From Rhizobium sp. BK376 (GTDB lineage Bacteria > Pseudomonadota > Alphaproteobacteria > Rhizobiales > Rhizobiaceae): 64,000 bases of DNA. Below are positions 38,400 through 49,505 of the stretch, piece after piece (the stretch's first letter is position 1; each line of letters starts with the position of its first letter). Made by a program: the position numbers and the translations under genes. The stretch spans positions 124,001 to 188,000 of the forward strand of contig NZ_SLZG01000006.1 of the NCBI RefSeq assembly GCF_004341625.1. The letters are read 5' to 3'. The notes under the pieces were generated by a model. The model ran no database searches, was not told the DNA's origin, and worked only from the letters and a program-made list of their open reading frames with translations.

Positions 38400-39146
38400 T
38401 CACCGTTCCCTCGGCAGCACATCGACCCGATCGAGCCAGTCCTCGAGATTTTGCTGCTCGCGCCGGAGGGCGTCGACATTGATCAGGCCGCGTGCCAGTG
38501 CGAGATAGATTGCCCGCGTCCGCGAATTGAATATGGGCAGGTTGTTGTCAGCCGGTTCTTCCAGCGTAGCCACGCCAAGCTTCTCATAGAGATGACGGAT
38601 GCGGGCCTGAGCGCCTCTCGTCGAAAGCCCCCTGCGCGCCGCAATCGCCTTGTCCGTCAGTCCGAGCGCCAAGTCTATGAGGCTCTCATACTCGCTGTCG
38701 GTGATGCCTTCCAATCGGTCCTGAACACGGTGCTGGATGCCGCGCACTTCACGATCAATGATGCAATGCCCCTCAGCAAAGACGCCGCGCAACGCCGACC
38801 GCATCCCCTCCTCCGATGCCGACTTCAGCACATATCCATAGACAGTGCCCGGCGGCACGATGCGCGCTACGCCTCGCACATAGGACTCATCGGCGAAATT
38901 CGACCAGAACAGGATGTTCGTGTCTGCTCGACTTGCCCAGATCGAGCGTGCGACCTCGATACCGGTCGCCTTCGGCAGCTGAAGATCGAGCACCACATAG
39001 GGCGGCTTGCGCTGCCGCGCCATGTCGATGGCGACATCGCCGCTGCTTGCCTCTATGACCTCGACATTGCCAGGCCACAGATGTTCGATCGTGGTCCGCG
39101 CAAAGGTGCGATGCAGACTGTCGTCCTCGGCAACCATCACTAACAT
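38400..39146 (-). CDS. LuxR/NarL-type response regulator
   Basis: A 248-residue response regulator. The receiver domain (1-130) has the acidic pair in AEDDS, phospho-acceptor Asp in YVVLDLQLP and Lys in YVLKSASEE. A helix-turn-helix of NarL type follows (GITDSEYESLIDLALGLTDKAIAARRGLSTRGAQARIRHLYEKLGV). A C-terminal extension of about 45 residues is unusual for NarL proteins. The ATG directly follows the kinase TAG with no gap. Confidence 0.88.
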   Translation of the reverse strand: MLVMVAEDDSLHRTFARTTIEHLWPGNVEVIEASSGDVAIDMARQRKPPYVVLDLQLPKATGIEVARSIWASRADTNILFWSNFADESYVRGVARIVPPGTVYGYVLKSASEEGMRSALRGVFAEGHCIIDREVRGIQHRVQDRLEGITDSEYESLIDLALGLTDKAIAARRGLSTRGAQARIRHLYEKLGVATLEEPADNNLPIFNSRTRAIYLALARGLINVDALRREQQNLEDWLDRVDVLPRER

Positions 39147-40418
39147 CTAAAGGCTCTCCATCGCTGCGAACGGGGCTTCCGATGCTGGCGATACTGCTGC
39201 CCCCCAGCTCCGCGTGATCTCGATTGCCACCCGCGTGCCACCTTTGCGGCCGACGCGACCGATCCTCAGCCGTGCGCCGATCAGCGCGGCACGGGTATGC
39301 ATGTGGCTGATGCCACCGGCGGCTCCGGGGTCGATATTGTCGCATCCGATACCATCATCCGTGACGACCACTCGCAGGATTGTCGGTGTTGCGTCGATCC
39401 GCACCTCTATGCATCGCGGGGCACCGTGCCGGACCGCATTGTTGATCGCCTCCTGGGCAATTCGGTAGATCGCAGTCAATATGCGCTCGGGAAGCGCGTC
39501 GGCAGCGCCATCGCTGGAATCATGCATCCGTACGGCGATCGAGGGCGTCGCGCGACTGACGCTTCGGTTCAGATGCGCCTCGATGGCATCGCGCAGACCG
39601 AACAGTTCGAGCACGCTCGGGCGCATGTCGTCGACGATGTGACGCAACTCCGTCAGGCAATTGACCACCTCGCGTTCCAGTTCCGCAAGCTGCGCCGAAC
39701 CGGCGACGCCTTGCCGATGGAGAGCCGAGACCTGGCGTACAACACGGGCGAGATCCGCCAATGTCTGGTCATGGAGATCCATGGCAATGCGCCGTCGCTC
39801 GCGTTCCATACCTTCGGTGAGACGGGCAGCACCCACCCGCAGAAGCTCTTCGCGATTGCGTGCATCGCTCTCCGCGAGCATCGCCCGCCGAGCCTCCTCG
39901 CTTTGGATCAGGGCGAAGATATAGGGCGCGATGAACTCGGCACAGTGCTGCGCAATTTCAAGATGGGAATGATCGTAGTAAGCCGGCTCGTGCAGGCTGA
40001 TGTTCAGGGCACCGATGATATTGGCGCGCGCCCTGAGCGGCACGACGATGCGACTGCGCAGGTTGGCGGCAAAAATTGGACCATCGAGCGCGCCCGGAAA
40101 ATGAAAGCGTGGATCGGCCAAGGCATCCTGCGTCATCAGGTAGGGCACCTCGCCGCGCAACACGGCGCGCACGGGACTGAGATCGACCGGCAGAGGACGC
40201 TGGGCAAGCTCGCTCCAACTTGTACGGCAACCTGTTTCGTAGCAGATGTGCGTGCGTCCTTCGTCCAGGATCACCGCAATATCCATGTGTTCATGCGGCA
40301 GAAGCGTTCTGATCTCCACGGCGACCTCACCCAGCGCGGCACCGGGATCGGTATGGCCGGCAAAGGCACGCGATATCGAGAGCAGCCTGTCCATCAGCTG
40401 CGCTGCCGTATATGTCAT
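39147..40418 (-). CDS. Soluble GAF-domain histidine kinase (NarX/HisKA_3 type)
   Basis: A 423-residue sensor kinase with no transmembrane segment. It has an N-terminal GAF domain (about 20-170), a HisKA_3 dimerisation/phospho-acceptor motif RRRIAMDLHDQTLADLARV with His216, and an HATPase with AQEAINNAVRHG and DDGIGCD. GGGAGGAC precedes the ATG. A cytoplasmic GAF sensor may bind a small ligand or sense gas or redox state. A FixK/FNR-like box lies 72 bp upstream. Confidence 0.88.
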   Translation of the reverse strand: MTYTAAQLMDRLLSISRAFAGHTDPGAALGEVAVEIRTLLPHEHMDIAVILDEGRTHICYETGCRTSWSELAQRPLPVDLSPVRAVLRGEVPYLMTQDALADPRFHFPGALDGPIFAANLRSRIVVPLRARANIIGALNISLHEPAYYDHSHLEIAQHCAEFIAPYIFALIQSEEARRAMLAESDARNREELLRVGAARLTEGMERERRRIAMDLHDQTLADLARVVRQVSALHRQGVAGSAQLAELEREVVNCLTELRHIVDDMRPSVLELFGLRDAIEAHLNRSVSRATPSIAVRMHDSSDGAADALPERILTAIYRIAQEAINNAVRHGAPRCIEVRIDATPTILRVVVTDDGIGCDNIDPGAAGGISHMHTRAALIGARLRIGRVGRKGGTRVAIEITRSWGAAVSPASEAPFAAMESL

Positions 40419-40724
40419 GGCTCGAAGTCCTCCCTCTTCTCCCATTCGACCATGATGCAGCAACTGATGCCGGTCGCGCTACCTTTCCTTTGATCTAGAT
40501 CGATGGATGGGCCCGTTGTTATCGTCCGACCGGGAATGCAACGATCTCCAACGTGGTCGCTATCGGACGATCAGTCGAATACCCGTTCAGCTTCCGCCCA
40601 TCGGGATGATTTCGACCAGTGCCATTTCATGAGGCTGCCATCGGAGAACGCGGCATTAATAACTTTTGAAGTTTAGCTTATACTGATATTATCGCGCTGC
40701 AATCACGACAATATGGGGCTCAAT
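40419..40724. other. 306-bp divergent intergenic region with a FixK/FNR-like box
   Basis: No gene is supported here. It holds the promoters of the GAF kinase (minus) and the DUF3365 operon (plus). TTGAT-CTAG-ATCGA at 40490-40503 matches the FixK/FNR anaerobox TTGAT-N4-ATCAA with one mismatch. A TATACT at 40679-40684 could be the -10 of the plus-strand operon, with a poor -35. Confidence 0.5.
40490..40503. promoter_or_regulatory. FixK/FNR-like box
   Basis: TTGATCTAGATCGA differs by one base from the symmetric anaerobox common in rhizobia. It lies 72 bp before the GAF-kinase start, compatible with activation at a class II-like position if the transcript begins about 30 bp before the ATG. Confidence 0.5.
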
Positions 40725-41471
40725 ATGCGGCGCGGCCTGATATGTGGTGTCCTTTTTGCTGGGGTCGCGGTCTGCGCTCTGGCAGGTTTTGTTGCTGCCA
40801 ACGAAGACGATATCGTTACAGGCGGCCGGCTCGCTGCAATGTTGAGCGCCGGAAGAGCCGTCATTTCGAGCCATCAAACACTGATCAACGACGAAACCCT
40901 CGGGAACAAGAACCTGACCGGGCAGCGTGTCGTCGACGAGGCGCTGGCGATATTTGCGCAACGCAAGGGCGATTCCGTAACCGATCAGAATTTCGACCCG
41001 CTGGACAAACAATTGTTCGATGCCCAGGTCGCCTCGATCAAGGAGGTCGTCGACGAGCACCAGGGGTTGATCAATACAATGGGCCTCGGCTTCAAGGGGT
41101 TCATTCCTTCAACCTTCGCCCGCCTGGTCAACGAGCGGTTCGAGGAAAAGGTCGGCGATATTGCAAAGGTAAAGCTGACGGCCCCGGAGGAACTGATCCG
41201 CAACCGCAAGGCCCGTCCCGACAATTGGGAACAGCATGTCATCGAGAGCAAGTTTCTCTCTCCCGATTGGCCAAAGGGCAAATCCTTCACGGAGCAGGTG
41301 GAGGTGAATGGCCGCCCATCGTTTCGCATGCTCATTCCCGAATATTATTCGCCGTCCTGTCTGACATGCCACGGCAAGCCCAAGGGCGAGGTCGATGTGA
41401 CGGGCTATCCCAAAGAGGGAAAAGCCGAAGGTGATCTGGGCGGTGCGGTCAGCATCACGCTGTTCAAATGA
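40725..41471 (+). CDS. Tll0287-like (DUF3365) exported protein with CxxCH motif
   Basis: A 248-residue protein with an N-terminal signal or anchor ([21 protein letters not shown]) followed by a Tll0287-like/DUF3365 domain. [13 protein letters not shown] near the C-terminus is a c-type haem attachment motif. Such domains have a PAS-like fold and are found in redox or haem sensors. Start ATG 40725 is preferred over 40713. The stop overlaps the hybrid-kinase ATG by 4 bp (ATGA), so it may be the kinase's sensory partner. Confidence 0.85.
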
Positions 41472-44182
41472 GTGCGCTCGCGACCATTCCGACACGGATC
41501 GGACATCTCACAAATCGCAAGATACCGCTCCGGCTGATCTGTCTTTCCGCCGGTCTTCTCGGCGCTCTGCTGCTGACCATCGCCTTTATGGCGCACGACC
41601 TGCGTGAAAATCAACGGCGTGTGGAGGAAGCCAACGCACGCTTTCACATGTTCGACGATGCGGCAAAGGCACACCGGCATTTCGGCGAGTTGCGCTATTG
41701 GCTGACGGACCTCTCGGTCAGTCTTCTGACACTCTCCGAGCGGAGAGCGGAAGCGGCTCGCAAAGCACTGGAAGGGGATCTGACCCATGTCAGGCTGTTC
41801 GCACCGGCCGAAGCGGACACCATCCTCGAGGGCGCGAACGCCTATTACGACAAGGCGATGGAAGCGGTCGATGCCTATACCAACGACAATAGAGTTGTCG
41901 GCAACACGCGCCTGGCCGCCGCCAGAACCCACAGCGATGAAGTCGATGCCGTCCTCATGTCCCTCGAACAACGGCTTGAGAACGAGGCCGATCTGGCACG
42001 GGACGCAGCCGATGCGACAGCGCGCAACACCTACATCCGCGCCCTGATTGCCGTTGGTGTGACGACGATCGCCTGCATTGTCATGACCTGGCTGGTGCTT
42101 CGCTCGATCCTCGTCCCGCTCGGCCGCGTCGACAGGGCAATGACGCAATTGACGAAGGGCCAGGAAGACGTCGAGCTGCCGCCTGAGGGCGCCGACGAAT
42201 TCGGGAAACTTTCCACGACGCTGCGGCTGCTACGCGACAGCCAGACAAGGCGGCGCGAACTTGAGGCCATAGCAGAGCGTCAGCGCAATACTGTCATGAC
42301 AGCAATGGAAACCATCCCCGATGGTTTCGCCTTGTTCGATCCAGATGATCGGCTGGTCATGGTCAACCAGCGTTATCTGGAATTGTTTCCGGAAACGGCA
42401 GAGTTCATGACGCCCGGAAGACCCTTTGAAGACATCGTTCGTGCACAGGTCGAACGCGGTACGGCCAAAGTGGGAAGTGCGGGGGTCGAGAGCTGGGTGG
42501 CTGACGCCATACACCGCCACCATGAGCCTCAGGGCATGATCGAACGGCAATTCTCCAATGGGAGCTGGGTGCGCATAGCCAAACGCAAAACGCCGGAGGG
42601 CGGTACCGTGGCCGTCTATACCGATATAACGGATCTGAAACGCCGTCAGACCGAACTCGAGACAGCCCGTCGAGGAGCAGAAGTCGCCAGCCAGGAAAAG
42701 AGCCGTTTCCTCGCCTCGATGAGCCACGAACTGCGCACGCCGTTGAACGCGATCATCGGATACAGCGAAATCCTCATGGAGGATGCAAACGAGCTTGGAC
42801 AGACCGATTTCGTTGCTGACCTCAACAAGATCATGGGATCGGGCCGCCATCTTCTCTCGCTGATCAATGACGTGCTTGATCTTTCCAAGATCGAGGCCGG
42901 CAAGATGGAGCTCTATGTCGAACGTCTCAGCCTGCGGCAACTGCTGATCGAGGTCCAAAGCACCATTGCTCCCCTGATCGCCAAGAGACGCAATCGACTG
43001 GTGGTGACTGCCTCGGTCGAACCGGACGAGATTGAAACCGACAAGACCAAGCTGCGGCAGAACCTCTTCAACCTGCTGTCGAACGCCGCAAAGTTCACGG
43101 AAGACGGCGAGATCAGGCTTGCGGTGAGACGCTACGGTGACGAAGGCGGAGACTGGTTGGAGTTCGCCGTCAGCGACAGCGGTATCGGCATGACCAAAGA
43201 GCAGCAGCAGAAGCTATTCCAGGCCTTCGTCCAGGTCGATTCATCCACCACCCGCAACTACGGCGGAACCGGGCTCGGCCTGACGATCACACAGCATTTC
43301 ATCACGATGATGGGAGGTACGATTACGGTCGAAAGCGAGTTCGGCAAGGGTTCGACTTTCCGGTTCGTAATTCCGGCCGTCAGCAAGACCGAGGTCGTTC
43401 CCGAAGCGCCGCCACGGAACGATGGGGCGGAAATTCCATGCTCTCGTGCCGTTGTCATGGTGATCGATGACGAGGCGCAGGCTCGCAAACTGGTCTCCGA
43501 GGCGGTTCGCAGCGCCGGATTTGACGTCGTTGAGGCTGCCAGCGGAGAAGAAGGCTTGGCGAAGGCCCGAAAGTTGCGTCCGGACGCGATCGTCCTCGAT
43601 GTGATCATGCCGGGGCAAGACGGCTGGTCCGTGCTGCGCGAGATCAAGTCCGACAACACGATCTGTGATATTCCCGTCATCCTGGCGACCGTCGTGGCGG
43701 ATCGCGAAATGGGACTGGCCTTCGGCGCCGTCGATCACCTGATCAAACCGATCGACCCGAAGCAGTTGATCGACACGTTGAACGCGGTTGCCGGTGAAGA
43801 CCGGCATGACGTGCTCGTCGTCGATGACGATCCGCCGACCCGCGAACTTTTCCGCAGGCTGCTGATAAGGGAAGGCTGGCGAGTGCGGGAGGCCGTCGAT
43901 GGCTGCCGCGGTCTCGAACAGCTGGAAGCCGGCCGGCCGACGATCATCGTTCTTGATCTGATGATGCCGAATGTCGACGGCTTCGCCTTTCTCAAAGCGG
44001 TCAAGAGCAGACCGGACCTGATCGATATCCCCATCGTGGTCGTGACCTCGAAGGATCTGACGCGAGACGAGCTGGATTGGCTTCACACTCATTCAAATGA
44101 AATCGTCAGGAAGGGCACGAAGGGCCGCGCCGATCTGATCGCCGCCGTGAAGCGGCATGTTCCATTGCGCGAAGAGGCATAG
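41468..44182 (+). CDS. Hybrid histidine kinase (HAMP-PAS-HisKA-HATPase-REC-REC)
   Basis: A 904-residue membrane kinase. TM1 is at about 22-42, a periplasmic region 43-188, TM2 at 190-213, HAMP to about 265 and a PAS domain at 275-390. HisKA has [21 protein letters not shown] with His420; the HATPase has [17 protein letters not shown] and GGTGLGL. Two receivers follow, VIDDEA...[11 protein letters not shown] and VVDDDP...[11 protein letters not shown]. It is coupled to the DUF3365 gene and precedes a single-domain receiver and a cyclase, forming a phosphorelay-type operon. Confidence 0.92.
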
Positions 44183-44193
44183 GGAGGGACAGA

Positions 44194-44559
44194 ATGGTCA
44201 AGATTCTTCTCGTCGAGGACAATGAGATGAACCGCGACATGCTCTCCCGCCGGCTGGAAAAACGGGGATATGAGGTGGTAAGCGCGACGGATGGGCTGGC
44301 GGGCGTCGAGGCCGCAGTCACTGCCAAGCCGGATCTCGTCCTGATGGATATGAGCCTTCCCGTGATCGACGGATGGGAAGCAACGAAGCGGATCAAGGAG
44401 AACCCTGCCACGTCAGCCATACCCGTGATAGCCCTCACCGCGCACGCCATGTCCGGCGACCGCGAAAAGGCGATGGAAGCAGGCTGCGACGACTATGACA
44501 CCAAGCCGATCGAATTGCCGGGGCTGCTCGACAAGATCGCTCGACTGACCGGGGGATGA
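44194..44559 (+). CDS. Single-domain response regulator (DivK/CheY-like)
   Basis: A 121-residue receiver with no output domain: VEDNEMNRDM acidic pocket, LVLMDMSLPVIDGWEA with phospho-acceptor Asp, TAHAMSGD, and YDTKPIE with the Lys. It resembles the DivK/PleD-type stand-alone receivers that often follow hybrid kinases in alphaproteobacteria. AGGGAGGGACAG precedes the ATG. It overlaps the cyclase start by 4 bp. Confidence 0.9.
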   Translation: MVKILLVEDNEMNRDMLSRRLEKRGYEVVSATDGLAGVEAAVTAKPDLVLMDMSLPVIDGWEATKRIKENPATSAIPVIALTAHAMSGDREKAMEAGCDDYDTKPIELPGLLDKIARLTGG

Positions 44560-46115
44560 CGAACTTGGCTCAATCTCCGGATGTCGATCGCCGCATCTAT
44601 ATCGCCAGGCTCGCTCAGAACATCGTCGATCCGGCACAGGTGATCCTTGGCTATCAAGAGCTGATTACCGAGGAGGTGAGGGAACTTGGCCCCAGCGATG
44701 CCTTGCCGGATCTTGAGAGAATATTGAGCGCCGCGCGGCAATTGAACCTGTTGATTGGCAAGCTTTTTGACGTCGAGGCACCGCAGGCTGGGAACGTCCC
44801 TGCATTTGATGCCGTGTTGCGGCATGATCTCAAGACCCCCGTGACCGCCATCCTCGGCTATTCCGAAATGGTGATCGAGGATTTCGCGGATGCACTGCCC
44901 GTCCATGTGCTCAGCGATCTGTCCAAGGTGGTCTATGAGACACGCAAGCTTCTTGCCCAGATCGACGAGACGCCCGATAGCTCGATCCTCAAAGAGGGGC
45001 AGGCGCCTTCCGTCGAGTTCGATGGCATGATTGCCGCAAATCTCGTAAGAACGATGGCGGATCGTTCCCCGATCGCGGCAGAGCGGGCGGGCCGCATCCT
45101 CATCGTCGATGACACGCTTTCCAATCGCGACCTTCTGTGCCGCCGCCTTGGTCGCGAGGGACATGTCGTCGTCGCGGCGGCTTCCGGCGAAGAAGCGCTG
45201 AGGATCATCTGCGAGCAGGATTTCGACCTCGTGCTGGCCGATATACTTATGCCCGATCTCAACGGCATCGAGCTTCTGGCGCGGCTTAAATCCGACAGGC
45301 GTTTTCGGGATATCTCCGTCGTCATGGTCTCCGGGCTTAAGGACGATGCCGCCGTTACCCGCTGCATCGAGGCCGGAGCGGATGACTATCTGCGAAAGCC
45401 GATCGATCCCGTCCTGCTGCGCGCCCGCATCGCCGCCTGCCTCGAACGCCGGCGCTGGCGTGAACGCGAAAAGCAATATCTTGCGCAGATAGAATTCGAG
45501 AAACAGCGTGCCGACGCGCTGCTGCAAGCTGTGCTTCCCAAACAGGTGGTCAGCCGGCTTGCGGGAGGAGAGGACGTCATCGCCGATCGGATCGACGTTG
45601 TAACCATCATCTTCGCCGACATCGTCAACTTCACGGAATTCGCAGCGCGAACGTCGCCCGCTGATCTTGTTCAGAGATTGGGAGATCTTTTCAACCGCTT
45701 CGACGAGCTTGCCGACCAATTCGGCGTCGAGAAAATCAAGACCATTGGAGATGCCTACATGGCGGCTGCGGGATTGCCGAACCCACGGCCGGATCATGCC
45801 GCCGTCGGCGTCGCATTCGCCCGGGCATTGATCGCTGAAACGTCTGTCTGCACCGATCACAAACCGCCGCTCATGCTGCGCATCGGCATCCATAGCGGAC
45901 CGGTCGTTGCGGGCCTGATCGGCAGAAAGCGATTCATCTATGACGTGTGGGGCCATACGGTCAACGTCGCCAGTCGCATGGAGTCCTACGGCATGCCGGG
46001 GCGAATTCAGATATCCGAAACAACCTTTGACGCCCTTGGCGACAGGCAGTTGGCGGCCCATCGCGAGGTAATGGATATTCGTGGTATCGGCAAATACACG
46101 ACCTACCTGCTGTAA
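44556..46115 (+). CDS. Class III adenylate cyclase with HisKA-like and receiver domains
   Basis: A 519-residue cytoplasmic protein. Residues 15-75 and 82-140 are two HisKA-like helical units. The second keeps the phospho-acceptor pattern FDAVLRHDLKTPVTAILGYSE (His90); the first has Gln21 at that position. A receiver follows (about 178-295, LVLADILMPDLNG), then a cyclase catalytic domain (about 340-515). The cyclase has IIFADIVNFTEF metal Asp, EKIKTIGDAYMAA with the adenine-selecting Lys, and YDVWGHTVNVASRME with the Asp and transition-state Asn/Arg. No HATPase is present. It probably makes cAMP under control of the upstream kinase. Confidence 0.9.
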   Translation: MTNLAQSPDVDRRIYIARLAQNIVDPAQVILGYQELITEEVRELGPSDALPDLERILSAARQLNLLIGKLFDVEAPQAGNVPAFDAVLRHDLKTPVTAILGYSEMVIEDFADALPVHVLSDLSKVVYETRKLLAQIDETPDSSILKEGQAPSVEFDGMIAANLVRTMADRSPIAAERAGRILIVDDTLSNRDLLCRRLGREGHVVVAAASGEEALRIICEQDFDLVLADILMPDLNGIELLARLKSDRRFRDISVVMVSGLKDDAAVTRCIEAGADDYLRKPIDPVLLRARIAACLERRRWREREKQYLAQIEFEKQRADALLQAVLPKQVVSRLAGGEDVIADRIDVVTIIFADIVNFTEFAARTSPADLVQRLGDLFNRFDELADQFGVEKIKTIGDAYMAAAGLPNPRPDHAAVGVAFARALIAETSVCTDHKPPLMLRIGIHSGPVVAGLIGRKRFIYDVWGHTVNVASRMESYGMPGRIQISETTFDALGDRQLAAHREVMDIRGIGKYTTYLL

Positions 46116-46143: not shown

Positions 46144-46950
46144 TTATAAATCACGATGCTCGGCGTCCGAGGACATCTCGGGTTCATAATGCGCCGTCAT
46201 GTAGACAACGGTGATGATGATCGCCCCGAGAAACAGCAGGCTGGTATAGACCGTGCCGAAGCCGAGGCCTCCATATTCCGACGGCTGCGAGAGATAGTCT
46301 CCGAGCGATGCGCCAAGCGGCCTTGTGAAAATGTAGGCAAGCCAGAATGCCAGGATGCCGTTCATGCTGAAACTGAAATAGGCAATCGCGATCAGAGCGA
46401 TAACGCTGGCAAAGATCAGCCCTGTCGTTATGTAGCCGAAATCGAATTTCTCCGAGATCAGATCGCCGACCGCCGTCCCCAGAGCGAAGGTGAAGAGGAT
46501 CGCTAGCCAGTAGAAGGCCTCGCGCCGCGTCGTGAAGATCGAGTGGATCGACAGCGTTCTCTCATAGCTCCACCATATGAAGAAAGTGAGTGCGAGCAGT
46601 ATGCTGAAGCCGATCGTCGAGGCCTCGAGCGGTACGCCCAGATTGTCCGACAGATTGTCGGTCAGGAGCGTTCCGACAACGCTGATCAGAACCACGGCGA
46701 TCCAGTAGGACCAGGGAACATATTGCTGCCGGATGAACTGATTGATGAGCGCGGCGATGAGAACGACCGTCATGATCGCCGATGTCGTGGTCAGTCCGAG
46801 CCCCAAATTGACCGCCAGGTAGTCGGCGGCGGTCTCTCCCATCGTCACGGCAAGGAGCTTGATCAGCCAGAAGTCAACGGTCACGCGTGGGACGCGATTG
46901 ATCAAGCCGGCAGTGCTGAAGGATGGATCCGATTTCATTTCGATCACCAT
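46144..46950 (-). CDS. COG4705-type multipass membrane protein
   Basis: About 268 residues with eight hydrophobic segments. Four loosely repeated units end in MGETAADYLAVN, LTDNLSDNLGVP, GTAVGDLISEKFD and LGASLGDYLSQPSEYGG, each an LG..xGD/N-type motif at a helix start. It belongs to the uncharacterised COG4705 membrane-anchored family. Start is ATG 46950 or, overlapping the upstream gene, GTG 46968. It is co-transcribed with an 88-residue exported protein and divergent from a two-component system, suggesting envelope or metal stress. Confidence 0.8.
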   Translation of the reverse strand: MVIEMKSDPSFSTAGLINRVPRVTVDFWLIKLLAVTMGETAADYLAVNLGLGLTTTSAIMTVVLIAALINQFIRQQYVPWSYWIAVVLISVVGTLLTDNLSDNLGVPLEASTIGFSILLALTFFIWWSYERTLSIHSIFTTRREAFYWLAILFTFALGTAVGDLISEKFDFGYITTGLIFASVIALIAIAYFSFSMNGILAFWLAYIFTRPLGASLGDYLSQPSEYGGLGFGTVYTSLLFLGAIIITVVYMTAHYEPEMSSDAEHRDL

Positions 46951-46964
46951 GGCAGGACCGAGCC

Positions 46965-47231
46965 TCACTTGGCCATGAGCTTCATGGCATCCTGCAGGAA
47001 GCCATCGGCGCGTTTGTCGTCATCGGCGTTGCAACGTTCGACAGCCTTCGTTTCCAGTGCGTCCACCTTCGATTTGACGTCGGGCGCGAGCGTGGCTGAC
47101 GCCTTGGTCGCACGCATTTCCTTCAACACGTCTTCGCAGGGCCGTACGGATGCGGCATTCGCCGCCAGAGGGAGCACCGTCATAACGAGGATCGCGGCGC
47201 GGACATAGTGGGAGGGCTTGAATGAATACAT
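46965..47231 (-). CDS. Small exported protein of unknown function (88 residues)
   Basis: An 88-residue protein starting MYSFKPSHYVRAAILVMTVL with a signal peptide cut near ANA-AS. The mature part is helical and charged, with two cysteines (RPCEDVLKEM and VERCNADDD) that could form a disulfide or bind a metal. GGAG lies eight bases before the ATG at 47231; the longer open frame upstream crosses the regulator's promoter. I do not recognise the family. Confidence 0.7.
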   Translation of the reverse strand: MYSFKPSHYVRAAILVMTVLPLAANAASVRPCEDVLKEMRATKASATLAPDVKSKVDALETKAVERCNADDDKRADGFLQDAMKLMAK

Positions 47232-47403: not shown

Positions 47404-47482
47404 GCGCCGTTCAGGTTGCAGACACCTTTGTGGAGCATGTGTAGGCCTGATTTTGCCACGCACCCGGAGCCGCGACAGGGGC

Positions 47483-48160
47483 ATGAAAATTCTCGTCGTC
47501 GAAGACGATAAAAAAACAGCCGAATATATTTCCCGCGGACTGAACGAAGCCGGCCACATCTGTGACGCCATATCAGATGGCACGGATGCGCTGTTCCAGG
47601 TGACTCGGGAGCAATATGACGTGCTCGTCGTCGATCGCATGATCCCGGGGCTCGACGGCCTGTCATTGATCAAGGCGGCCAGAGCAGCGAAAATAAAGAC
47701 CCCGGCAATGTTCCTGACGTCGGTGAGCGGCGTCGACGATCGGGTCGAAGGCCTGGAGGCCGGCGGCGACGACTATCTTACGAAGCCGTTTGCGTTTTCC
47801 GAATTGCTCGCGCGCCTGAATGCTTTGGCGCGCCGTCCGCCGGTCCTCGATCAGAAGACTGTCTTGAAGGTCGCAGATCTCGAGCTCGATCTCGTCAAGC
47901 GACAGGTCTGTCGACAGGGCGTTGCCATCGAACTACAGCCACGCGAATTCACGCTGCTGGAAGTGCTCATGCGTGGCGAAGGTCGGGTCCTGACCCGCAC
48001 GATGCTGCTGGAACGGGTCTGGGACTTCCACTTCGATCCGAAGACAAGCGTGGTCGAGACCCATATCAGCCGCCTGCGGGCGAAAATCGACAGGCCGTTC
48101 GAGGTGCCGCTGCTCCATACGGTCAGAAATACCGGATACTGCATCCATGCACCGCGCTAG
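47483..48160 (+). CDS. OmpR-family response regulator (CusR/QseB-like)
   Basis: A 225-residue regulator. The receiver (1-120) has VVEDDKKTAEYI, VVDRMIPGLDG and YLTKPFAFSEL, and the winged-helix domain has LQPREFTLLEVLMRGEGRVLTRTMLLERVW and VVETHISRLRAKID. Start ATG 47483 begins MKILVVEDD; the ten upstream codons are not conserved. It overlaps the kinase gene by 14 bp. It resembles heavy-metal and envelope-stress regulators. Confidence 0.92.
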   Translation: MKILVVEDDKKTAEYISRGLNEAGHICDAISDGTDALFQVTREQYDVLVVDRMIPGLDGLSLIKAARAAKIKTPAMFLTSVSGVDDRVEGLEAGGDDYLTKPFAFSELLARLNALARRPPVLDQKTVLKVADLELDLVKRQVCRQGVAIELQPREFTLLEVLMRGEGRVLTRTMLLERVWDFHFDPKTSVVETHISRLRAKIDRPFEVPLLHTVRNTGYCIHAPR

Positions 48161-49505
48161 GCTGCTGCGAAGCACGCCACTCAGGCTCGCAGTCTCCTTC
48201 GGCCTGTTTTTCATCGTTGCCTTTTTCATCACGGGTCTCGTCGCCTACGGGCTGATGAGGCGAGAGCTCGCGCGGTCGCTCGACGTCTCGATCATGGACA
48301 CCTACTCGATCGTCCAGTCCACCTATTCGTCGAACGATCTTGAGGATCTCGTCGCAGCCGTCGATACCTACTCGGCGCTGAAGCGCTCCGAGGATCAGGT
48401 GTTCCTGCTTCTGGATGGGAATGGAAAGAAGCTTGCCGGCAATGTCCCTGCCATCAGTGTCACGCCGGGAATATCCACCCTCCCCTCTACCGCTTTCGGG
48501 CTAGAAGGAAACGATCCGATCCGGATCATGGCAGGGGGCGTCGGCGACAACAGGCTGATTGTCGGCCAGAGCTATAAGGAAACCGACCGTATCGAGCGCA
48601 TAGCCTTGATGAGCTTCGCCTGGGCGTCGGTCATCATCGTCGCGACCGTCATCGTCGGAGGCGCCGTGCTCGCGCGCCGCACCCAGCATCGGCTCCGGTC
48701 GATCGAGCAGACGATGATCGAAGTATCGGCCGGCAATCTTTCGCGTCGCATTCCGACCCGCGGCAATGGAGACGACATCGACGTCGTCTCAAGTCATATG
48801 AACGACGCGCTCGTCCGCCTCTCGGGTCTCGTGGAAGGAATGAGGCAGGTCAGCACCGACATCGCTCACGATCTGAAGACGCCGCTGAATCGGCTGCGCC
48901 TGACGATCGAACAGGCGATTTCGCGACAGGAGCGGGCCGAGGATGTCGAAGACCTTCTGCTCGACGCGAGGGACGAAAGCGACCGCATCAACGGCACGTT
49001 CGAAGCACTGCTGCGGATTTCACAAATCGAGGCCGGTGCGAGGAAGACGCGGTTCAAGGCGGTCGACCTCTGGGACGTCATGGTGTCGGTCTGCGAGATC
49101 TATGCGGATGTGGCAGAAGACAGCCTGCAGAGCCTAAAACTGGAGCCGCAACCCTCGGATCCCTGTATGATCAACGGAGATCACGAACTTCTCATCCAGC
49201 TCTTCGTCAACTTGGTGGAGAACGCCATCACGCATTGTCCGCCACAGACTGTCATTACGATGTCGTTGCGTCCCACGGAGATCGGCTTTCGCGCTGCGGT
49301 CGACGATAACGGCCCGGGAATTCCCGCCGGAGAGCGCAACCTTGTCTTCAGGCGGCTCTACCGACTGGACAAAAGCAGGACTACCCCCGGAAGCGGTCTG
49401 GGCCTCAGCCTCGTCAAGGCGATAGCGGACCTCCATTCGGCAACCATCACCTTGGAGGACAACAAGCCGGGTCTGAAGGCGTGCCTGGATTTTCGAAAGC
49501 TCTAG
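48147..49505 (+). CDS. Membrane histidine kinase (CusS/QseC-like)
   Basis: A 452-residue sensor: TM1 at about 15-40, a periplasmic loop of about 100 residues, TM2 at about 150-175, HAMP, HisKA with MRQVSTDIAHDLKTPLNRLRL, and an HATPase with NLVENAITHCP, DDNGPGIP and SGLGLSLVKAIADLH. It is the partner of the overlapping regulator. The periplasmic loop has no metal-binding His/Met cluster, so a metal signal is not evident. Confidence 0.92.
   Translation: MHRARLLRSTPLRLAVSFGLFFIVAFFITGLVAYGLMRRELARSLDVSIMDTYSIVQSTYSSNDLEDLVAAVDTYSALKRSEDQVFLLLDGNGKKLAGNVPAISVTPGISTLPSTAFGLEGNDPIRIMAGGVGDNRLIVGQSYKETDRIERIALMSFAWASVIIVATVIVGGAVLARRTQHRLRSIEQTMIEVSAGNLSRRIPTRGNGDDIDVVSSHMNDALVRLSGLVEGMRQVSTDIAHDLKTPLNRLRLTIEQAISRQERAEDVEDLLLDARDESDRINGTFEALLRISQIEAGARKTRFKAVDLWDVMVSVCEIYADVAEDSLQSLKLEPQPSDPCMINGDHELLIQLFVNLVENAITHCPPQTVITMSLRPTEIGFRAAVDDNGPGIPAGERNLVFRRLYRLDKSRTTPGSGLGLSLVKAIADLHSATITLEDNKPGLKACLDFRKL

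Follow-up and report, generated by a model that had tools for sequence, protein, structure and literature searches.

In the TorT-TorS and LuxP-LuxQ pairs, a separate periplasmic protein informs a hybrid histidine kinase, while ChpT and Spo0B are phosphotransferases of the DHp type and CyaC of Spirulina is an adenylate cyclase controlled by a phosphorelay. As described in the accessible text of PMC5898713, phosphate passes from the single-domain receiver SdrG to PhyT and on to PhyR, and this transfer depends on a His (His341 of PhyT). In S. meliloti, redox state is known to control cAMP through a separate route, that of CyaC (PMC10463352). Tll0287 and other DUF3365 proteins constitute the sCache_heme family, which was characterized in a 2026 preprint (PMC12889525). 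The stand-alone member tested there (from P. putida) carries a Cys/His haem and behaves as a redox protein, Tll0287 also has a Cys/His-ligated haem, and the preprint assigns stand-alone members a redox role. A member that has transmembrane helices and a HAMP domain and lacks the Cys (P. azotoformans type) binds NO tightly (PMC12889525).

We analyzed a 64,000-nucleotide stretch of DNA from Rhizobium sp. BK376 (below, the window) which contains four closely spaced genes, A to D. We propose that they encode a phosphorelay in which the signal would pass from A to B, C, His90 of D, Asp229 of D and finally the cyclase domain, a proposal that we consider about evenly balanced between right and wrong. 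The features of the locus are as follows:

40725-41471, + strand: gene A, exported stand-alone Tll0287-like (DUF3365, sCache_heme) protein of 248 aa (PF11845, E 6.4e-17; signal peptide assigned by eye)
41358-41372, + strand: CxxCH haem c attachment motif of A, residues 212-216 (present in 25/25 rows from 24 genomes and in 17/17 rows of a second alignment)
41468-44182, + strand: gene B, membrane hybrid histidine kinase with two receivers, 904 aa (Pfam domains, catalytic residues)
41600-42037, + strand: periplasmic helical domain of B with a conserved 12-residue stretch, presumed partner of A (alignment; boundaries approximate, by eye)
42698-42901, + strand: HisKA domain of B, phospho-acceptor His420, codon 42725-42727 (Pfam, residue alignment)
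43454-44152, + strand: receivers 1 and 2 of B, Asp711 and Asp830 (Pfam, residue alignment; end of the second approximate)
44194-44559, + strand: gene C, single-domain receiver, Asp52, codon 44347-44349 (one Response_reg match in Pfam, residue alignment)
44556-46115, + strand: gene D, DHp1-DHp2-receiver-adenylate cyclase, 519 aa (Pfam, AlphaFold2 model)
44577-44768, + strand: DHp1 helical hairpin of D, model helices 8-44 and 47-71 (phospho-His position taken by Gln or Glu in almost every row)
44811-44969, + strand: DHp2 helical hairpin of D, H-box RHDLKTP with His90, codon 44823-44825, no ATPase domain (His in 25/25 rows)
45096-45431, + strand: receiver of D, Asp229, codon 45240-45242 (Pfam, residue alignment)
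45582-46112, + strand: class III cyclase domain of D, adenine-type Lys395/Asp463 and metal Asp355/Asp399 (Pfam, residue alignment, structural matches)

The initial annotation had read this region as a four-gene operon for a haem-type exported protein, a two-receiver kinase, a lone receiver and a receiver-cyclase. This anatomy agrees with the Pfam domains, but the tandem DHp hairpins of the cyclase and the exchangeable nature of the parts had been missed. The ATGA overlaps and short gaps it mentioned are present: A and B overlap by 4 nt (ATGA), B and C are separated by 11 nt, and C and D again overlap by 4 nt (ATGA). The operon is real and conserved, with the A-B-C-D order found on one strand in 16 of the 18 loci picked by their match to D, and it follows that the arrangement is not due to chance. 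The two exceptions are L038, which is ended by a contig edge, and L042, which lacks A; L018 has a shorter C frame than the window (the match covers residues 1-92). All four genes are also present in two class-level loci, L161 and L166. The 4-nt A/B overlap was seen, as read by eye, in 15 of the 20 loci whose ORF starts are clear (the window included), a count that leaves out eight entries, two of them from one genome, whose longest-ORF starts run into A. The genes flanking the cassette vary among the five near relatives read. A-B-C-D is a conserved cassette and no single oddity.

The product of gene A, for which there is an alternative in-frame ATG at position 40713, matches PF11845 with 62.8 bits (curated cut-off 24.1), and no second match to this family was found in the genome at E<=0.001. 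Outside the CxxCH motif and after the signal peptide, the alignment contains no Cys in any of its 25 rows (positions of extra Cys residues were assigned by counting back from CxxCH), and no His or Met is conserved to 80%, with Met202 present in 16/25 and His50 in 13/25 rows. Two invariant lysines, Lys62 and Lys124, might in principle act as haem ligands. The 25 rows come from 24 genomes (L031 and L175 belong to one genome); A of L032 and L035 is present only in the 17-row alignment, and A of L172 only as a profile match. Structure prediction of A without an alignment yielded a pLDDT of 40.6 and the model was set aside; a sequence search of the PDB revealed no credible relatives.

By Pfam, the B protein contains HAMP, PAS_7, HisKA, HATPase_c and two Response_reg domains. 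His420 and the tested N-box and G-box residues are kept in 31/31 non-gap rows; the phospho-acceptor Asp of receiver 2 is present in 31 rows and that of receiver 1 in 30, with Glu in the remaining one. Among 397 genomes in the order sample, 20 were matched by a profile of A (E<=1e-20), and a B ectodomain profile (E<=1e-8) matched the identical 20, with the two matches adjoining on one strand in every case. The ectodomain profile was built from kinases adjoining A and could miss remote relatives without A, but within its reach there was no exception. Out of 14 order genomes with D, 13 have the A-B pair (split over two contigs in G247), and the pair is retained where the rest differs: in L174, A-B-C is followed by a receiver-cyclase gene of the same direction that lacks DHp. 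Neither the kinase cores of the haem type (26 rows versus 6, p-AU 2.3e-52; this group was labelled before the tree was drawn) nor those of DHp-cyclase cassettes (p-AU 0.0035) form one clade. It thus follows that the sensor module changed kinase cores or was replaced more than once. Since A and the B ectodomain occur side by side in the same genomes, and A is absent where the ectodomain differs, A is very probably a co-sensor of B, and the link of the haem protein to the kinase is stronger than could be known from the window.

One can alternatively suppose that A, as a periplasmic haem protein, merely shares a regulon with B and makes no contact with it, the two genes being neighbours by co-inheritance only. 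The cassette does lie amid differing flanking genes in the five near relatives, as if inherited as a unit, and the A-B interaction is itself inferred. However, the pairing of A with the B ectodomain persists where the kinase core and the next gene differ, and A is missing from two Methylocystis-type loci with another ectodomain. We regard such mere co-inheritance as very improbable. As to what a co-sensor A would detect, the protein appears to fall between two classes, the stand-alone redox proteins and the fused NO sensors. The Cys that serves as the sixth haem ligand in the redox subclass is absent, and this absence resembles the NO-binding type; A is not fused to a signaling module as NO sensors are, yet a kinase gene adjoins it in all 20 genomes. 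The C59A mutant of the P. putida protein still released NO fast (PMC12889525), and since removal of the Cys did not confer tight NO binding there, the absent Cys in A is only an indication. NO as the signal stands somewhat short of an even chance, and redox state is level with it or slightly lower. Should A be a redox or electron-transfer protein that reports the periplasmic redox state and no gas sensor, the rest of the chain would be unchanged, so that this possibility overlaps with our main proposal. It is favored by the behavior of the tested stand-alone member (PMC12889525) and by CyaC of S. meliloti, which, in the accessible text of PMC10463352, ties cAMP to redox state. Yet both that member and Tll0287 use Cys/His ligation, for which A offers no Cys beyond CxxCH, and we consider a purely redox role rather unlikely. 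Denitrification as the source of NO was considered and, judged by nirK alone, rejected: nirK exceeded the profile cut-off in 6 of 20 genomes with A and in 16 of 60 others (order-sample genomes picked by handle number) and is not enriched with A, which also speaks for the redox role. The window's own genome has no nirK at this cut-off.

The lone receiver, C, is the most conserved piece among near relatives. It is 66-95% identical to C of the 18 D-matched loci, and in Methylocystis it is 75% identical, compared to 43-45% for the kinase core and the cyclase there; identity drops to 54-64% in the loci with SpoIIE or DHp-less cyclases described below. Such conservation fits a hub that touches several partners. 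Asp52 is present in 30/30 aligned rows and Lys104 in 29, with one gap; for this protein, which the initial annotation had called DivK-like, family searches gave general receiver matches only.

Pfam detects in D a Response_reg domain, a Guanylate_cyc domain (E 6e-56) and HisKA in two stretches (E 5e-10), and the same scan gave no HATPase match. In the AlphaFold2 model, two hairpins at residues 8-71 and 86-138 are followed by the receiver, a long coil and the cyclase. The model has a mean pLDDT of 78.8 and a pTM of 0.57 and was built on seven alignment rows, just two of which span the hairpins; the hairpins themselves are mostly at pLDDT 80-91, with about 65 at the start of each. The structural comparison of D covers the receiver and the cyclase, the DHp part being barely sampled; the cyclase domain of Spirulina CyaC is among the matches. 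In DHp1, the phospho-His position is occupied by Gln in 21, Glu in 3 and Ser in 1 of 25 rows, with His in a further row, L038, whose D is complete. In DHp2, His90 is invariant (25/25) within an H-box that reads HDLRTP or close to it (HDLRNP in L167). The receiver residues and six cyclase residues are intact in 28/28 rows, Asp229 among them, apart from Ser259, which is present in 27 with Thr in the other one, so that D combines a receiver with its Asp and Lys and an intact adenylate-type cyclase site. We take Lys395 and Asp463 to determine adenylate specificity and Asp355 and Asp399 to bind metal. The residue alignment leaves out L031, L038 and L176 (second entries of G104/G247 or partial contigs); the rows for D additionally exclude L168 and L175, whose sequences were available in part only.

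The best match of DHp2 in the genome outside D is the HisKA domain of B (37.5 bits, E 2e-8; next match, 21.4 bits), and the cyclase therefore seems to carry a copied kinase acceptor domain that lacks the ATPase. DHp2 is 38% identical to the B DHp of its own locus versus 35% to those of other loci, which gives no pointer to recent copying. With a conserved phospho-His in a DHp-like hairpin and the ATPase domain absent, D appears to have the anatomy of a DHp-type phosphotransferase.

The proposed relay would operate as follows. A, a putative periplasmic haem c Cache protein, would be exported, sense a small haem ligand (NO being the likeliest) or redox state, and dock on the helical periplasmic domain of B, a pairing shown by co-occurrence of the genes. 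B would autophosphorylate at His420 and pass the phosphoryl group via its own receivers and/or directly to Asp52 of C, from which it would be transferred to His90 in DHp2 of D; both residues are conserved. Having no ATPase domain of its own, DHp2 would act as a phosphotransferase, His90 would donate to Asp229, and the receiver would control the adenylate cyclase through the coil. The B core and C would make up the constant middle, which in some relatives, judging by gene content, is served by a different sensor pair and seems to feed different outputs. The flow from a periplasmic haem protein through kinase and receiver to cAMP, put forward in the initial annotation, is supported as far as gene content goes, and the order B to C to His90 to Asp229 to cyclase is favored because of the PhyT precedent and the intact key residues.

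Three D-like cyclases that adjoin C without any DHp (L174, L177 and L178) speak against this order as a general rule: DHp2 is not needed in every version and another wiring must also exist. The main rival to the His90 relay is direct phosphorylation of both C and the D receiver by B, with the hairpins of D serving only to dimerize or to dock C, and with C acting as a phosphate sink or an allosteric regulator of B. In its favor, L174 and L177 have the kinase, C and a receiver-cyclase without any DHp, and DHp1 is degenerate. DHp2 might then be only a docking site for C, by analogy with DivL, which is a docking site for DivK; a DivL structure is among the weak hits (E 0.28). Yet docking alone would not demand an invariant His90 within an H-box, and DivL itself has lost its His. 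We place direct phosphorylation on the unlikely side and prefer the relay through His90 for the cassette of the window.

The sensor part of the cassette is exchanged among relatives. L042, the only one of the 14 order genomes with D that lacks A, encodes a kinase with a different ectodomain that has a dCache match below the cut-off; the same holds for Methylocystis locus L044, and both loci carry, in place of A, an upstream gene for a Peripla_BP_5 binding protein. Beyond the order, matches to D that begin near its N-terminus were found in six genomes, just two of which (L161 and L166) have A-B. In L163, a DctP protein gene is located between B and D and the kinase input is GAF, while in L165, a TctC-type protein gene is located between B and C and the kinase input is PAS. 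L162 has another kinase, with no periplasmic partner among the ORF starts read (the Pfam scan covered some of its ORFs), and no kinase or C was seen in the stretches read around D of L164 and L167. The class-level D matches of G516, G477, G624, G757, G541, G610 and G702 lie outside the set of stretches read. The kinase of L177 has a tandem PAS input, by eye. The kinases of L162, L163, L165 and L177 have other inputs and occur in other families of the class, and the cassette type is wider than its haem version, which is one of several sensor versions.

D is absent at E<=1e-100 from four genomes that have A-B-C (G122, G153, G178 and G248), each of which has a close receiver-SpoIIE homologue. The gene adjoins C on the opposite strand in G122 and G178 (L169 and L172), whereas in G153 and G248 it shares the contig at a distance of 67-70 kb; the same search found no homologue in G000 and G240 and matched only the receiver of D in G359. 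At L169 and L172, the receiver-SpoIIE phosphatase gene is convergent with A-B-C. A gene for a small STAS-like protein (by eye) adjoins it in L172, hinting at a partner-switch output. SpoIIE as an alternative output, judged by neighbourhood, is suggestive only.

Taken at its widest, the cassette would be an alphaproteobacterial phosphorelay of interchangeable parts, with a constant chassis of kinase core and lone receiver, exchangeable co-sensors (haem-Cache, Peripla_BP_5, DctP, TctC) that come with their own ectodomains, and either cAMP or a SpoIIE phosphatase as the output. The DHp of the kinase would have been copied twice into the cyclase to form an integral and perhaps intramolecular phosphotransferase bundle in which one His is active, and the haem version would be a periplasmic NO sensor made from a stand-alone protein. 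We consider it quite unlikely that this picture holds in full.

D was matched in 14/397 order genomes at E<=1e-100 and in 3/25 genomes of the genus, the window's own counted, at E<=1e-60. A scan of contigs for D (at least 80 loci) matched residues 1-519 in L044 and residues 19-511, at 31%, in L052. D is present on 80 plasmid records (Sinorhizobium, 67; Rhizobium, 11; Phyllobacterium, 1; Pararhizobium, 1), and pSymB of S. meliloti carries the cassette, its four genes being annotated separately as a DUF3365 protein, two response regulators and a cyclase. The D ortholog there spans 367812-369371 of NC_003078.1. The kinase tree does not unite Rhizobium and Sinorhizobium-type cassettes in one clade (p-AU 1.9e-70, for a group named after the tree was seen). 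Together with the differing flanking genes, this tree suggests that the cassette probably moves between lineages.

A divergent pair of genes upstream of A (38400-40463, - strand) codes for a sensor kinase with GAF and HisKA_3 domains and for a receiver protein that weakly matches the LuxR type (GerE); neither gene was the best match of any ORF in the loci of the five near relatives. An FNR/FixK-like box with one mismatch is located at 40490-40503, between the divergent kinase gene and A. As a part of the system it was rejected: in the 400 nt that precede the longest-ORF start of A, the best site has three or four mismatches in 19/19 other loci. The box may serve the divergent kinase or be due to chance. 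Downstream, a DUF347 membrane protein gene (46144-46968, - strand) and a pair of genes for an OmpR-type regulator and a HAMP kinase (47453-49505, + strand) were seen in a region dense in signaling genes.

The initial annotation knew of no described system with this combination. Among the matches listed in a search of titles and abstract starts in the PMC open library, we likewise found no description of the operon, and among the matches listed from the same library none of the A-B-C-D combination, of a DHp pair in a cyclase or of the exchanged sensors. The locus ties stand-alone haem-sensor members, for which redox roles have been proposed (PMC12889525), to a dedicated kinase gene, which makes their function testable. 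D offers a cyclase with a possible built-in histidine phosphotransfer step, and the cassette provides a naturally occurring case of sensor exchange around a single phosphorelay core. One copy is located on pSymB of S. meliloti, a species for which, according to the accessible text of PMC13001267, a strain without all 28 annotated class III cyclase genes exists.

Precedents exist for all parts and for the logic, namely, haem Cache sensors, periplasmic partners of hybrid kinases, His phosphotransferases and receiver-cyclases. Unlike TorT-TorS and LuxP-LuxQ, the putative periplasmic partner here would be a haem-Cache protein and no binding protein; B as a TorS equivalog was rejected (NCBIfam TIGR02956, 308.6 bits against a cut-off of 676.5). 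A receiver and a class III cyclase driven by a histidine kinase are shared with Spirulina CyaC, but in the window, separate genes encode the kinase, the lone receiver and the cyclase, the receiver of the cyclase comes after a DHp pair, and there is a putative periplasmic haem partner. A is like Tll0287 and sCache_heme proteins (PMC12889525) in its PF11845 match, its CxxCH and its stand-alone exported form and differs in having no axial Cys available and a partner kinase gene. With CyaC of S. meliloti, the system would share haem-linked control of cAMP in rhizobia; CyaC, however, is one membrane protein with haem b in the membrane, and the accessible text of PMC10463352 does not mention a phosphorelay. 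The closest likeness in the order of transfers is to Pak-SdrG-PhyT-PhyR, in which, as described in the available part of PMC5898713, a kinase is followed by a single-domain receiver, a His and an output receiver, whereas here, the putative His donor is fused to the output receiver, there is no ATPase domain, and the output would be cAMP.
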